Positions 18,127 to 22,028 of a DNA stretch of 64,000 nucleotides are shown one piece after another. Source of the stretch: Haloarcula sp. H-GB4 (GTDB lineage Archaea; Halobacteriota; Halobacteria; Halobacteriales; Haloarculaceae); NCBI RefSeq assembly GCF_030848575.1, contig NZ_JAVDDX010000002.1, forward strand, positions 1 to 64,000. Direction: 5' to 3'. The translations under genes were made by a program, and so were the position numbers. Numbering within the stretch: the stretch's first letter is position 1; each line of letters begins with the position of its first letter. Under the pieces are notes generated by a model that saw only the letters and a list, made by a program, of their open reading frames with translations, was not told the origin of the DNA and ran no database searches.

Positions 18127-18252
18127 GCCCGAGGAAGGCCATAGCCATGCAAAAGCGTGCTGGCCGATTATCAGCGGTTTTCGGGAAACAACTATGACGG
18201 TGTTTGGCAGAGTTCCACGGAGTATATGAGTACACAAACCATGATAATTCCC

Positions 18253-19407
18253 ATGGATCTGCTATCCGAGAAACTCGTTCCGGAACACGCACACGAGGTC
18301 AAGGAAGAGGCTCGGGAGTTCGCCGCGGAGCACATCGAGCCAGTCGCGGGTGAGTACTACGCGTCCGGGGAGTACCCCTGGGATGTACTCGAAGCGGCAA
18401 CGGAGGCTGGACTCGTCGCACAGGATATCGGCGAAGAGTGGGGCGGGAGCGGCTACGACCTCCAGCAGATGCTTGCGATGGCAGAGGAGTTGTACAAAGC
18501 CGACGCAGGGATCGCGCTGACAATCCAACTCGCCAGCTTCGGGGCGGAGATCGTCGAGGACCACGGCGCAGACTGGCAGAAAGAGGAGTTCCTTGAGCCC
18601 GTCGCCGCCGGCGATCAGCTTACCGGTCTCGCCGTCTCCGAACCGGAGACGGGGAGCGACCTCGCCGGGATGACGACGGCCGCCGAGAAAGACGGTGACG
18701 AGTGGGTGATTAACGGCGAAAAATACTGGATCGGCAACGGCGTCGAGGCGGACTGGGTGACGCTGTACGCCAAGACCGGTGACGACCCGAACGACCGCTA
18801 CGGGAACTACTCGATGTTTATCGTTCCGACGGACGCCGACGGCTACCACGCCGAGCACATCCCTGAAAAGATGGGCTTCCGGGCGTCCAAGCAGGCCCAC
18901 ATTGTGCTCGATGACTGCCGGATTCCGGAAGAGAATCTGGTCGGCGTGGAAGGGGCCGGCTTCTATATGCTCGCTGAGTTCTTCAACCACGGCCGCGTCG
19001 TCGTCGGCGGACACGGCCTCGGTCTGGCCGCGGCAGCCATCGAGGAAGCATGGGAGTTCGTCCACGACCGCGAAGCCTTCGGCAAGACCGTCGACGAATT
19101 CCAGGCGGTCCAACACAAGCTGGCCGATATGCAACTCAGCCTCCAGTCCGCCCGGACCCTCACCTGGCACGCGGCTGAGCGCGTCGCCAATCAGGAGAAC
19201 TCCGGCTACTGGGCCGCATTGGCAAAGACCAACGCGACCGAAGCCGCGATGGACTGTGCGGAGAAGGGGATGCAACTCCACGGTGGGCGATCCGTGCTGA
19301 CAGAGAACCGCATTTCCCGCGTGTACCGCGACGTGCGGATTCCGGTCATCTACGAAGGAGCCAACGACATCCAGCGGAATCTCATCTACAACCAGGCACC
19401 GATGTAA
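18253..19407 (+). CDS. Acyl-CoA dehydrogenase
   Basis: 384 residues from ATG at 18253 (MDLLSEKLVPEHAHEVKEEAREF); ATG at 18241 would add four residues. Motifs: GLAVSEPETGSDLAG (FAD/substrate region, about residue 125), FMVVG-equivalent hinge HGRVVVGGHGLGLA, and the C-terminal RVYRDVRIPVIYEGANDIQRNLI with the catalytic glutamate in YEG. It oxidises acyl-CoA to enoyl-CoA and passes electrons to ETF. Divergent from the lipoprotein gene, with about 125 bases between them for both promoters. Next to the replication-box field downstream. Confidence 0.93.
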   Translation: MDLLSEKLVPEHAHEVKEEAREFAAEHIEPVAGEYYASGEYPWDVLEAATEAGLVAQDIGEEWGGSGYDLQQMLAMAEELYKADAGIALTIQLASFGAEIVEDHGADWQKEEFLEPVAAGDQLTGLAVSEPETGSDLAGMTTAAEKDGDEWVINGEKYWIGNGVEADWVTLYAKTGDDPNDRYGNYSMFIVPTDADGYHAEHIPEKMGFRASKQAHIVLDDCRIPEENLVGVEGAGFYMLAEFFNHGRVVVGGHGLGLAAAAIEEAWEFVHDREAFGKTVDEFQAVQHKLADMQLSLQSARTLTWHAAERVANQENSGYWAALAKTNATEAAMDCAEKGMQLHGGRSVLTENRISRVYRDVRIPVIYEGANDIQRNLIYNQAPM

Positions 19408-19469: not shown

Positions 19470-20218
19470 TACACCACCCTTCGAGTGTTCTTTGTGGAAT
19501 TTGGCTGGCTAGCTATCACTACGACAGCAGTACACTACTGGACAGTCTGTACAGCCCGGAGAGACCAGACAGACAGGTCATTATGCTCCTGTACGAAGTC
19601 CATGCGAGTGATACCGAGTCGGTACACCACCCTACAAGTGTTCTGACATCACCGGACAGTCGACCTGACACCCTCATACAAGTGTTCTACCACCACCCTG
19701 CAAGTGTTTCCAGTTCGACTACAACTGGACCAGAACGGTGAACACGTGTTCACACACCACCCTGCAAGTGTTCGGACGGAAGGTGTGTGAGCATCTGAAA
19801 TGTCCGAAAACACCATGCTGCAAGTGTTGTTGTGGCGTTGTTTGGAGTTCTGATGCGACCTTGCACACCACCGTGCAAGTGTTTCACGCACTGATTGAGG
19901 TAGGTGAGAATACGCCGAAACACCACCCTGCAAGTGTTCCAAAACGGCCGTTTTGGGCGGTTTTTCCGTCAGATCAGGGTTCACACCACCCTGCAAGTGT
20001 TTTCGAAACGGAATACCGTCGAGCTGTGGTAGAAACGGGTGAACACACCAGTCTGCAAGTGTTCTACACACTGCAGCGGGGGACAGATACCAGATAACCA
20101 CCTGTATGTACTCCTCTTTCACTGTCTATTGTGGGGACACACACCACCCTGCAACTGTTCTGGACGCCACAATAGAGAGACCGCCGCTGGACACACACAC
20201 ACCACCGTGCAAGTGTTC
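19470..20218 (+). repeat. Field of about twelve origin-box repeats downstream of cdc6
   Basis: Unit consensus ACACCACCCTGCAAGTGTTC, all in the same direction. Copies: 19471, 19624, 19668 (degenerate), 19690, 19754, 19810, 19865, 19920, 19983, 20045, 20141 and 20199 (each 20 bp from the start given). In the central block the spacing is 55-63 bp. The gaps between units are unrelated to each other. The whole 835-bp gap from 19408 to 20242 is otherwise non-coding. The same unit flanks the AT-rich region on the other side of the gene, in inverted pairs. In Haloarcula hispanica an ORB-rich region downstream of cdc6E was reported to repress oriC2, probably by titrating Cdc6E. Confidence 0.88.
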
Positions 20219-20242: not shown

Positions 20243-21571
20243 CTACGTGAACTGCCAGAGGTTCTGTTGCTCGTCGTCAGTAGTGTCCGGTGCCTCGAAC
20301 TCAGTCGCCTCGTCTTCCAGGTAGTGTTCGAGAATCCCGTTGACGTTGCTCGGTACGGCATCGCTGTAGGAGGACTGGAGTGCAGCGTTGATGATGTCGG
20401 TCGGGTCATCGGTGACCTCGTAAATGTACTTGCGGCCGCCCTTACGACCGAGATTGCGTTCCGCAGAGCGGACCAGCCCCTGCATCGAAAGCTGGTCAAG
20501 GAACTCGTAGATCTTCCGCTCGGATTTCACGCGGCGACCGCTCGACTCCGCAATCGAAGAATAGAGATTGTAGATCCGCTTCGTTGACGCCTCGTGTTTC
20601 GGCTCGATAAGTGCGAGCGTCGTCGCGAGATAGGTCAGCGCCTGCTGTGAACTCAGATCGTGTTCGAAGTAGTCAAGCAGTTCGTCGGTTTCGATGGTGT
20701 CTGTTGCCCGTCGTGTATGCGCTTCCGTCACACCATCTGCACCCTCCATCCGCGCGTACTCCCCAGCCTTTTCGAGGATTCGGAGTCCCTGCCGAACGTC
20801 ACCGCGTTCTTGTGCAGAGAAGGCCGCTGCTAGCGGGACGACGTCTTCGCCGAGCACGTCCTCCCGGAACGCAATGTCAGCGTAGTAGCCCAGAATGTCG
20901 CGAAGTTCGGTCGCGTCGTACGGGCCGAACTTGATCTCTCGCTCCCCCAGCGTTGATTTCACCTTGGGTTCCAACACGTCAACGAACTTGAGGTCGTTCG
21001 AGATACCGATGAGCCCAACCTTTGCATCGGTGATCGGCGTATTCTCGTTCGCTTCAGCTCGCGGCAGTTCGTAGAGAAAGTCGTTCCGTGCGTCCGCTGG
21101 AATGTTGTCAATCTCATCCAGAATTATCAGAACGTTCCCGCCCACAGCCTCTATCTCTTCGTAGAGGAACTCGAAGACGCTGTCAGTGCTGTAGCCACTC
21201 TCCGGGAGCTGGTTCTCAGGATCCCGGAACTCGTTGACGAGCGTATTTACCAGTGCATACGCCGACCGATAGTTCCGGCAGTTAATCGGACCGACAACGG
21301 TGAGCGGGATATCCTCAGCCTCGGCTTTCTCTTCGAGTTTGTCCCGTACCCACTTCGTGACGGCAGTCTTGCCGACCCCTGTTGGACCGTAGACGAAAAC
21401 GTTGTTGGGGTCGTGGCCGACGATGACGTCCTGAAGCGCGTTGATGTAGAACTCGATCTCTTCGTCGCGGTGGAAGATCGTATCCGGCGTGAACGTATCT
21501 TTTTTCAGCGGTTGCTTTCGTTCGAAGATCGCATCAGTCCCATCGAACGGGTTCTCGTTCACGTCGACCAT
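20243..21571 (-). CDS. cdc6E: Orc1/Cdc6 origin-binding initiator
   Basis: 442 residues from ATG at 21571 (MVDVNENPFDGTDAIFERKQPL). AAA+ ATPase domain with Walker A VYGPTGVGKTAV near residue 62, Walker B VLIILDEIDNIP, sensor 1 GISNDLKF and the arginine-rich sensor 2 region ERGDVRQGLRILEKAG; C-terminal winged helix (about 340-420: RKIYEFLDQLSMQGLVRSAERNLG). It recognises origin boxes and loads the MCM helicase. Both flanks carry box repeats, so it is an origin-linked initiator. The symbol rests on likeness of the locus to oriC2-cdc6E of Haloarcula hispanica, not on alignment. A TATA box sits about 27 bases before the start. Confidence 0.9.
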   Translation of the reverse strand: MVDVNENPFDGTDAIFERKQPLKKDTFTPDTIFHRDEEIEFYINALQDVIVGHDPNNVFVYGPTGVGKTAVTKWVRDKLEEKAEAEDIPLTVVGPINCRNYRSAYALVNTLVNEFRDPENQLPESGYSTDSVFEFLYEEIEAVGGNVLIILDEIDNIPADARNDFLYELPRAEANENTPITDAKVGLIGISNDLKFVDVLEPKVKSTLGEREIKFGPYDATELRDILGYYADIAFREDVLGEDVVPLAAAFSAQERGDVRQGLRILEKAGEYARMEGADGVTEAHTRRATDTIETDELLDYFEHDLSSQQALTYLATTLALIEPKHEASTKRIYNLYSSIAESSGRRVKSERKIYEFLDQLSMQGLVRSAERNLGRKGGRKYIYEVTDDPTDIINAALQSSYSDAVPSNVNGILEHYLEDEATEFEAPDTTDDEQQNLWQFT

Positions 21572-21593: not shown

Positions 21594-21604
21594 TGTATAT
21601 AAAA
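21594..21604 (-). promoter_or_regulatory. TATA box of cdc6
   Basis: Minus strand reads TTTTATATACA about 25-30 bases before the ATG at 21571, implying a nearly leaderless message. A degenerate box copy (ACCACCGTTCAAGTGTTT, 21611-21628) lies directly upstream of the TATA element. Confidence 0.6.
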
Positions 21605-21654
21605 CCAGTGACCACCGTTCAAGTGTTTCAAGTGTTTTCACGTCGGGAAGTCAC

Positions 21655-21674
21655 ACACCACCCTGCAAGTGTTT
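21655..21674 (+). promoter_or_regulatory. Origin recognition box, left
   Basis: Unit ACACCACCCTGCAAGTGTTT, preceded by further CA alternation, in the same direction as the downstream field. Confidence 0.8.
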
Positions 21675-21777
21675 CTCCGATTCCACTCGAAAACAGCCAC
21701 GAGCAGTCTGCTACACCGATATCTGACCTAGCGTACTTGACTCCTGCGATTCTTCATTCTCTGGCCATAGAACAGAT

Positions 21778-21825
21778 CTAGAACTAGAATATAATCTTAT
21801 ATCTTATGGTATATGAAATTTTGTC
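21778..21825. other. AT-rich presumed duplex-unwinding element
   Basis: The lowest-GC run near the origin, a series of TATA/ATAT words (for example AATATAATCTTATATC) between the two inverted boxes. No reading frame crosses it. Position between inverted origin boxes is the reason for the call. Confidence 0.65.
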
Positions 21826-22007
21826 TGGCTAATGTTGGACAGCAGATTCTATAGAACCTAGACTAAGGGCGCTCTATAGCGTCTAAATCTGTATATAACT
21901 GTCTTGACTCGATCACATAGTCTCGACGGGACAGAACAATCTTCCGTTTATTTAAGTATGGCCAAGTGGCTCCACCCCTCCCCACCCCCCACCCCTGCAA
22001 ACTCCGA

Positions 22008-22028
22008 GAACACTTGCAGGGTGGTGTG
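22008..22028 (-). promoter_or_regulatory. Origin recognition box, right, inverted
   Basis: Reverse complement of the unit (GAACACTTGCAGGGTGGTGTG), followed by TGTGTGGG. A C-rich tract with runs CCCC lies on its inner side, matching the G-rich stretch usually found next to haloarchaeal origin boxes. Confidence 0.8.

Follow-up and report, generated by a model that had tools for sequence, protein, structure and literature searches.

The stretch of DNA analysed here (64 kb of Haloarcula sequence, hereafter the window) raises the question of why the gene of an archaeal replication initiator, cdc6E, should be followed by a dozen of the boxes that its product is predicted to recognise, all of them in a single direction and behind the gene.

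An array of origin boxes behind cdc6E

Scanning of the window with ACACCACCCTGCAAGTGTTC returned twelve copies with at most four mismatches each, lying between 19471 and 20218 and all (12/12) on the + strand, which are predicted to be Cdc6E origin-recognition boxes (ORBs). The boxes start at 19471, 19624, 19668, 19690, 19754, 19810, 19865, 19920, 19983, 20045, 20141 and 20199, with start-to-start distances of 153, 44, 22, 64, 56, 55, 55, 63, 62, 96 and 58 bp. An earlier reading of the letters alone (the sequence-only reading) had described about twelve one-direction copies in 750 bases 3′ of cdc6, spaced by 55-63 bp in the centre; the scan agrees with the number and the direction, and the measured distances with the spacing to within 1 bp. 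The array comprises an outermost box 1 (ACACCACCCTTCGAGTGTTC, 19471-19490, +), a rigid part formed by boxes 2-5 (19624-19773, +), boxes 6-10 (19810-20064, +), a CAACTG variant as box 11 (20141-20160, +) and box 12 (20199-20218, +), about 25 bp off the cdc6E stop codon. Box 5 is adjoined by a perfect palindrome (GTGAACACGTGTTCAC, 19738-19753) composed of two inverted half-boxes.

Apart from the array and the origin boxes, no site with four or fewer mismatches was found in the window; Markov-simulated sequence (4 x 64 kb) likewise gave none at this threshold, and 0-1 sites with five mismatches. The whole 4.19-Mb genome holds just two further sites with three or fewer mismatches, while a genome-wide search with the reversed pattern as control gave none. 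Solitary three-mismatch boxes of identical sequence (AGACCACCGTGCAAGTGTTG) occur in similar short surroundings at G000:C6:49494-49513 and G000:C11:1465-1484, and are probably part of a repeated gene or element.

The array occupies an 835-bp gap between the 3′ end of cdc6E and that of a convergent acyl-CoA dehydrogenase gene (18157-19407, +), and because it sits between two 3′ ends, it contains the promoter region of neither. Other identities were also considered for the repeats: a CRISPR array was ruled out, as the repeats vary and the spacers are orthologous between species, and a structured RNA was discarded, as no Rfam match was obtained in the window.

The gene itself (20243-21571, -) encodes an Orc1/Cdc6 initiator of 442 aa with AAA+, Cdc6 lid and C-terminal winged-helix regions. 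A TATA-like element (TTTTATATA, 21596-21604, -), conserved in the alignment, lies 25-33 bp 5′ of the ATG, and 4 bp upstream of it stands a weak box with five mismatches (21609-21628, +), followed by a truncated copy (about 21623-21636). The position of this promoter-adjacent box is conserved in other genera, in which it lies at about -56 to -79, and its placement suggests that it is likely an autorepression site. Beyond it lies oriC2, with a near-side ORB (21655-21674, +), a presumed unwinding region (21750-21970) and an inverted far-side ORB that matches perfectly (22008-22027, -). The presumed unwinding region is 62% AT with a 100-bp peak of 67%, and 21751-21870 ranks among the most AT-rich 100-bp windows within the 64 kb. 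The inverted pair of the same box around an AT-rich origin, claimed in the sequence-only reading, is thus present, with the weaker + box at 21609 in addition. Directly inside the far-side ORB, a C-rich tract (CTCCACCCCTCCCCACCCCCCACCCC, 21970-21996) is conserved in most Haloarcula and may correspond to the G-rich enhancer of oriC1.

Orthology with oriC2D and inheritance of single boxes

A comparable element has been described in Haloarcula hispanica, in which oriC2D (722 bp, 11 boxes) lies directly 3′ of cdc6E (Wu et al., 2014, PMC3936714). This region has no ARS activity alone and is not part of the minimal origin; it cuts the copy number of oriC2 plasmids both when placed in cis and when acting in trans from the chromosome; two boxes give an intermediate effect on an oriC2 plasmid; and its deletion was obtained only when oriC2 was also removed (PMC3936714). 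The negative control was attributed by the authors to a mechanism 'likely via Cdc6E-titrating' (PMC3936714). Among the genomes compared here, G007 matches the published figures of oriC2D exactly, with 11 boxes in a 722-bp gap, from which it is inferred to be H. hispanica, and every one of its boxes pairs with one window box in the alignment. By this alignment, the window array is the box-by-box orthologue of oriC2D, flanked by the same pair of genes at the corresponding position, and a further member of an element type already described, as the sequence-only reading had surmised from its likeness to the H. hispanica control element. The flanking genes, the box and the direction are shared, 11 of the 12 window boxes are individually orthologous, the 12 array boxes and three boxes at the origin follow the same consensus, and the Cdc6E encoded directly 5′ of the array is 99-100% identical. 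The window species is a different one, with an extra outer box at 19471; this box 1 and its flank are missing in H. hispanica and H. amylolytica, while its sequence is identical in 10 of 14 genomes.

The trans effect also bears on a reading in which the array is a polar replication-fork barrier or a transcription insulator between convergent genes. Polar barriers typically show a uniform direction, and the array does lie between two 3′ ends; nevertheless, a negative effect in trans argues against mechanisms confined to cis (fork barrier, transcription block), replication of the H. hispanica chromosome proceeds in both directions from oriC1 and oriC2, and the same box direction recurs in other genera and on plasmids, which together make this reading highly improbable.

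Arrays are present in all 15 Haloarcula-type genomes that have Cdc6E (97-100% identical), including those of H. sebkhae, argentinensis, japonica, amylolytica, mannanilytica, salina and vallismortis, and in G020 the array is split. Alignment with other Haloarcula genomes, which the sequence-only reading had proposed, shows over 14 genomes that the boxes are conserved and that the spacing is inherited with small indels. Mean identity over 13 species amounts to 0.946 in boxes against 0.667 in spacers (0.932 against 0.629 over 14 genomes, when H. salina is included), and insertions fall at one place in the boxes as against 15 in the spacers. Between the window and H. salina, the spacers have dropped to an identity of 0.34, near the level of unrelated sequence, while the boxes retain 0.83.

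Conservation extends to the peculiarities of single boxes. Box 9 is identical in 14/14 genomes, GGT/AGT replaces ACC in box 10 of 12/14, and the deviant C at position 15 of box 11 (CAACTG) is retained in 14/14. Since deviant bases are kept per box across the genus, they are inherited variants and not decay, and the alignment indicates that the boxes are under selection one by one, not merely as a box type; each is probably used at its own strength. The earlier statement that CAAGTG is almost invariant and the ACCAC tail variable was only half right: over the 14 genomes, little or no change is seen at CACC (2-5), T10, C12, A14 and TGTT (16-19), deviation at position 15 is essentially confined to box 11, and variation falls at positions 1, 6-9, 11, 13 and 20. 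The distances of 44, 22 and 64 bp within boxes 2-5 are constant in nearly all genomes that retain these boxes. Among the longer spacers, the one between boxes 4 and 5, which contains the 16-bp palindrome, has the highest identity (0.80). A test for phasing of the boxes to the DNA helix gave no signal at 10-11 bp. The two puzzles left by the sequence-only reading, shared spacing and shared deviant bases, are thus explained by the age of the boxes, each of which has been passed down separately across the genus.

Direction, growth and plasmid relatives

Beyond the main Haloarcula set, 14 outgroup loci with Cdc6E 67-86% identical (among them loci from Halobellus, Halorubrum, Natribaculum, Natrinema and H. 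pelagica, and not fully independent of one another) carry 2-10 downstream boxes each at varying spacing, and all 66 of these 66 boxes are oriented like the near-side origin box. For each Cdc6E homologue, down to 67% identity, the origin and the array share the same box type. Over all arrays compared, box number ranges from 2 to 13 and spacing differs between genera, from about 20 to over 150 bp.

Such uniformity might suggest a positive element, in which the array extends oriC2 as an arm and channels Cdc6E towards the unwinding region, which every box faces; the 66 outgroup boxes and all Haloarcula downstream boxes do share the orientation of the near-side ORB. However, the region lowers oriC2 activity in H. 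hispanica, and tandem duplication alone predicts a common direction, and this reading carries very little probability.

Growth by short tandem duplication is the best explanation of the uniform direction, and the array would have expanded in this way from a single ancestral box near the stop codon. Births of this kind are visible in H. amylolytica, in which a 21-bp duplication added one box, and in G020, in which a 44-bp duplication added one; the Halobellus array is regular, at 46-47 bp. A common tandem-repeat unit was sought in the window array and rejected, similarity outside the 20-bp boxes being 0.27 against 0.25 in shuffled sequence, a slight excess only; any duplication there must thus be old. 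The direction may also be maintained in part by selection against boxes that face each other, since such a pair would look like an origin.

Insertions have interrupted several arrays. The interrupting element is of IS1595 type in G020 (L059 end / L010 start), where TATTGTTGA is duplicated at its ends, of IS630 type in a plasmid array of Natrinema gelatinilyticum (L109 7412-9199) and an IS605-type tnpB in G095 (L095 985-2614). All three retain boxes on both sides, so contiguity is unnecessary for retention.

Initiator boxes behind other haloarchaeal cdc6 genes have likewise been reported (Wu et al., 2012, PMC3528665), in lower numbers and in some cases for other Cdc6 types with other box sequences; the oriC2 homologue of Halorubrum lacusprofundi has three downstream boxes (PMC3936714). 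In the genome of the window, five of nine other cdc6 genes (L099, L100, L101, L104, L106) carry 1-4 boxes of their own, different type downstream. These are oriented like the near-side box at four of the five loci and oppositely at L101, which breaks any universal direction rule for cdc6 genes. Plasmids of H. pelagica, Natribaculum breve and Natrinema gelatinilyticum carry relatives, and none were found in viral contigs. The plasmid relatives agree with a published proposal in which the chromosome captured oriC2-cdc6E, and suggest that copy control of a plasmid was the first role of the array.

Restraint of oriC2 by a probable Cdc6E sink

The array is probably best understood as oriC2D, a cis-linked sink for Cdc6E that limits the firing of oriC2. 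In this scheme, Cdc6E from the adjacent gene would spread over about 15 sites per chromosome copy, 12 of them in the array, and most of it would be held at the array, where no unwinding region exists; the best array boxes have the same sequence as the best origin box. Once oriC2 fires, the leftward fork would reach the array within 2.5 kb and double the sink at once, with the result that free Cdc6E would drop and re-firing be delayed. The weak box at the cdc6E promoter would fill last and probably repress the gene. Titration is supported by the H. hispanica genetics and the orthology with oriC2D, together with the conservation of boxes over spacers, the box type common to origin and array, the near-absence of the boxes from the rest of the genome, the lack of helical phasing, the retention of boxes around transposons and the births of boxes by duplication; no Cdc6E binding data for these arrays were found in the literature. 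Certain features argue against a plain sink, for which the direction need not be fixed, deviant boxes need not be conserved one by one, and neither the rigidity of boxes 2-5 nor the conservation of the spacer between boxes 4 and 5 is required.

The rivals that matter are inactivation and handcuffing. According to the former, Cdc6E on the array would be driven to ATP hydrolysis or otherwise switched off, so that active and not free Cdc6E is lowered. The model is E. coli datA, likewise a cluster of initiator boxes outside the origin that restrains initiation, which was first named a titrator and is now described as acting by datA-dependent DnaA-ATP hydrolysis (PMC4585315). Ordered, individually conserved boxes with a rigid 44/22/64 block would suit such a defined complex. 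However, datA combines five DnaA boxes with an IHF site, a partner that is required at a fixed spacing, whereas the array has 12 boxes, adjoins both the origin and the initiator gene and lacks fixed overall spacing, box number and spacing vary widely between genera, and insertions are tolerated. Compared on box spacing alone, the array is free and unphased overall, with rigidity in boxes 2-5 and conservation of the box 4-5 spacer. The intermediate effect of two boxes in H. hispanica is also as expected of a graded sink, and inactivation is considered unlikely.

Handcuffing, in the style of iteron plasmids, would have Cdc6E on the array pair with origin-bound Cdc6E, either within one molecule or between sisters, and thereby block unwinding. 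Iterons of theta plasmids usually lie inside the origin and are helically phased. The array resembles them in being a set of same-direction repeats, each about 20 bp long, next to the initiator gene, in the incompatibility of oriC2 plasmids with the wild type and in having plasmid-borne relatives that recall iteron systems, and such pairing could act in trans. It differs in lying behind the gene with spacings that do not follow whole helical turns, oriC2D in H. hispanica is outside the minimal origin and dispensable for origin activity, and evidence for bridging by Cdc6 is lacking; handcuffing is thus regarded as quite unlikely.

Apart from the plain sink, it is conceivable, at a tentative level, that the array is a ladder of individually tuned sites derived from a plasmid copy-control module, which counts initiators per chromosome; occupancy would begin at the strong array boxes, pass to the origin and reach the weak promoter box last. 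If true, having to recognise some 15 tuned sites would contribute to freezing the sequence of Cdc6E, which is strongly constrained. Between the window and 12 species, pN is 0-0.003 at a pS of 0.30-0.48 (pN/pS 0-0.006), and in H. salina 0.014 at a pS of 0.56; the ratio is 0.04-0.08 for Cdc6A, the oriC1 initiator, in the same species (0.11 in H. salina) and 0.015-0.14 for neighbouring genes. This near-frozen state is unexpected, since H. hispanica can lose Cdc6E without a reported growth defect (PMC4441112).

The present analysis adds the cross-genome conservation of boxes over spacers, the direction pattern, the transposon-split arrays and the births of boxes by duplication. The archaeal initiator sink that has been studied is not peculiar to one strain; it is present throughout Cdc6E-bearing Haloarcula, and arrays also accompany Cdc6E homologues of other genera, as well as plasmid-borne ones. 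Titration, inactivation and handcuffing have long been debated for DnaA of E. coli, and the natural variants of the array (2 to 13 boxes, split arrays, deviant boxes) could serve to separate them.
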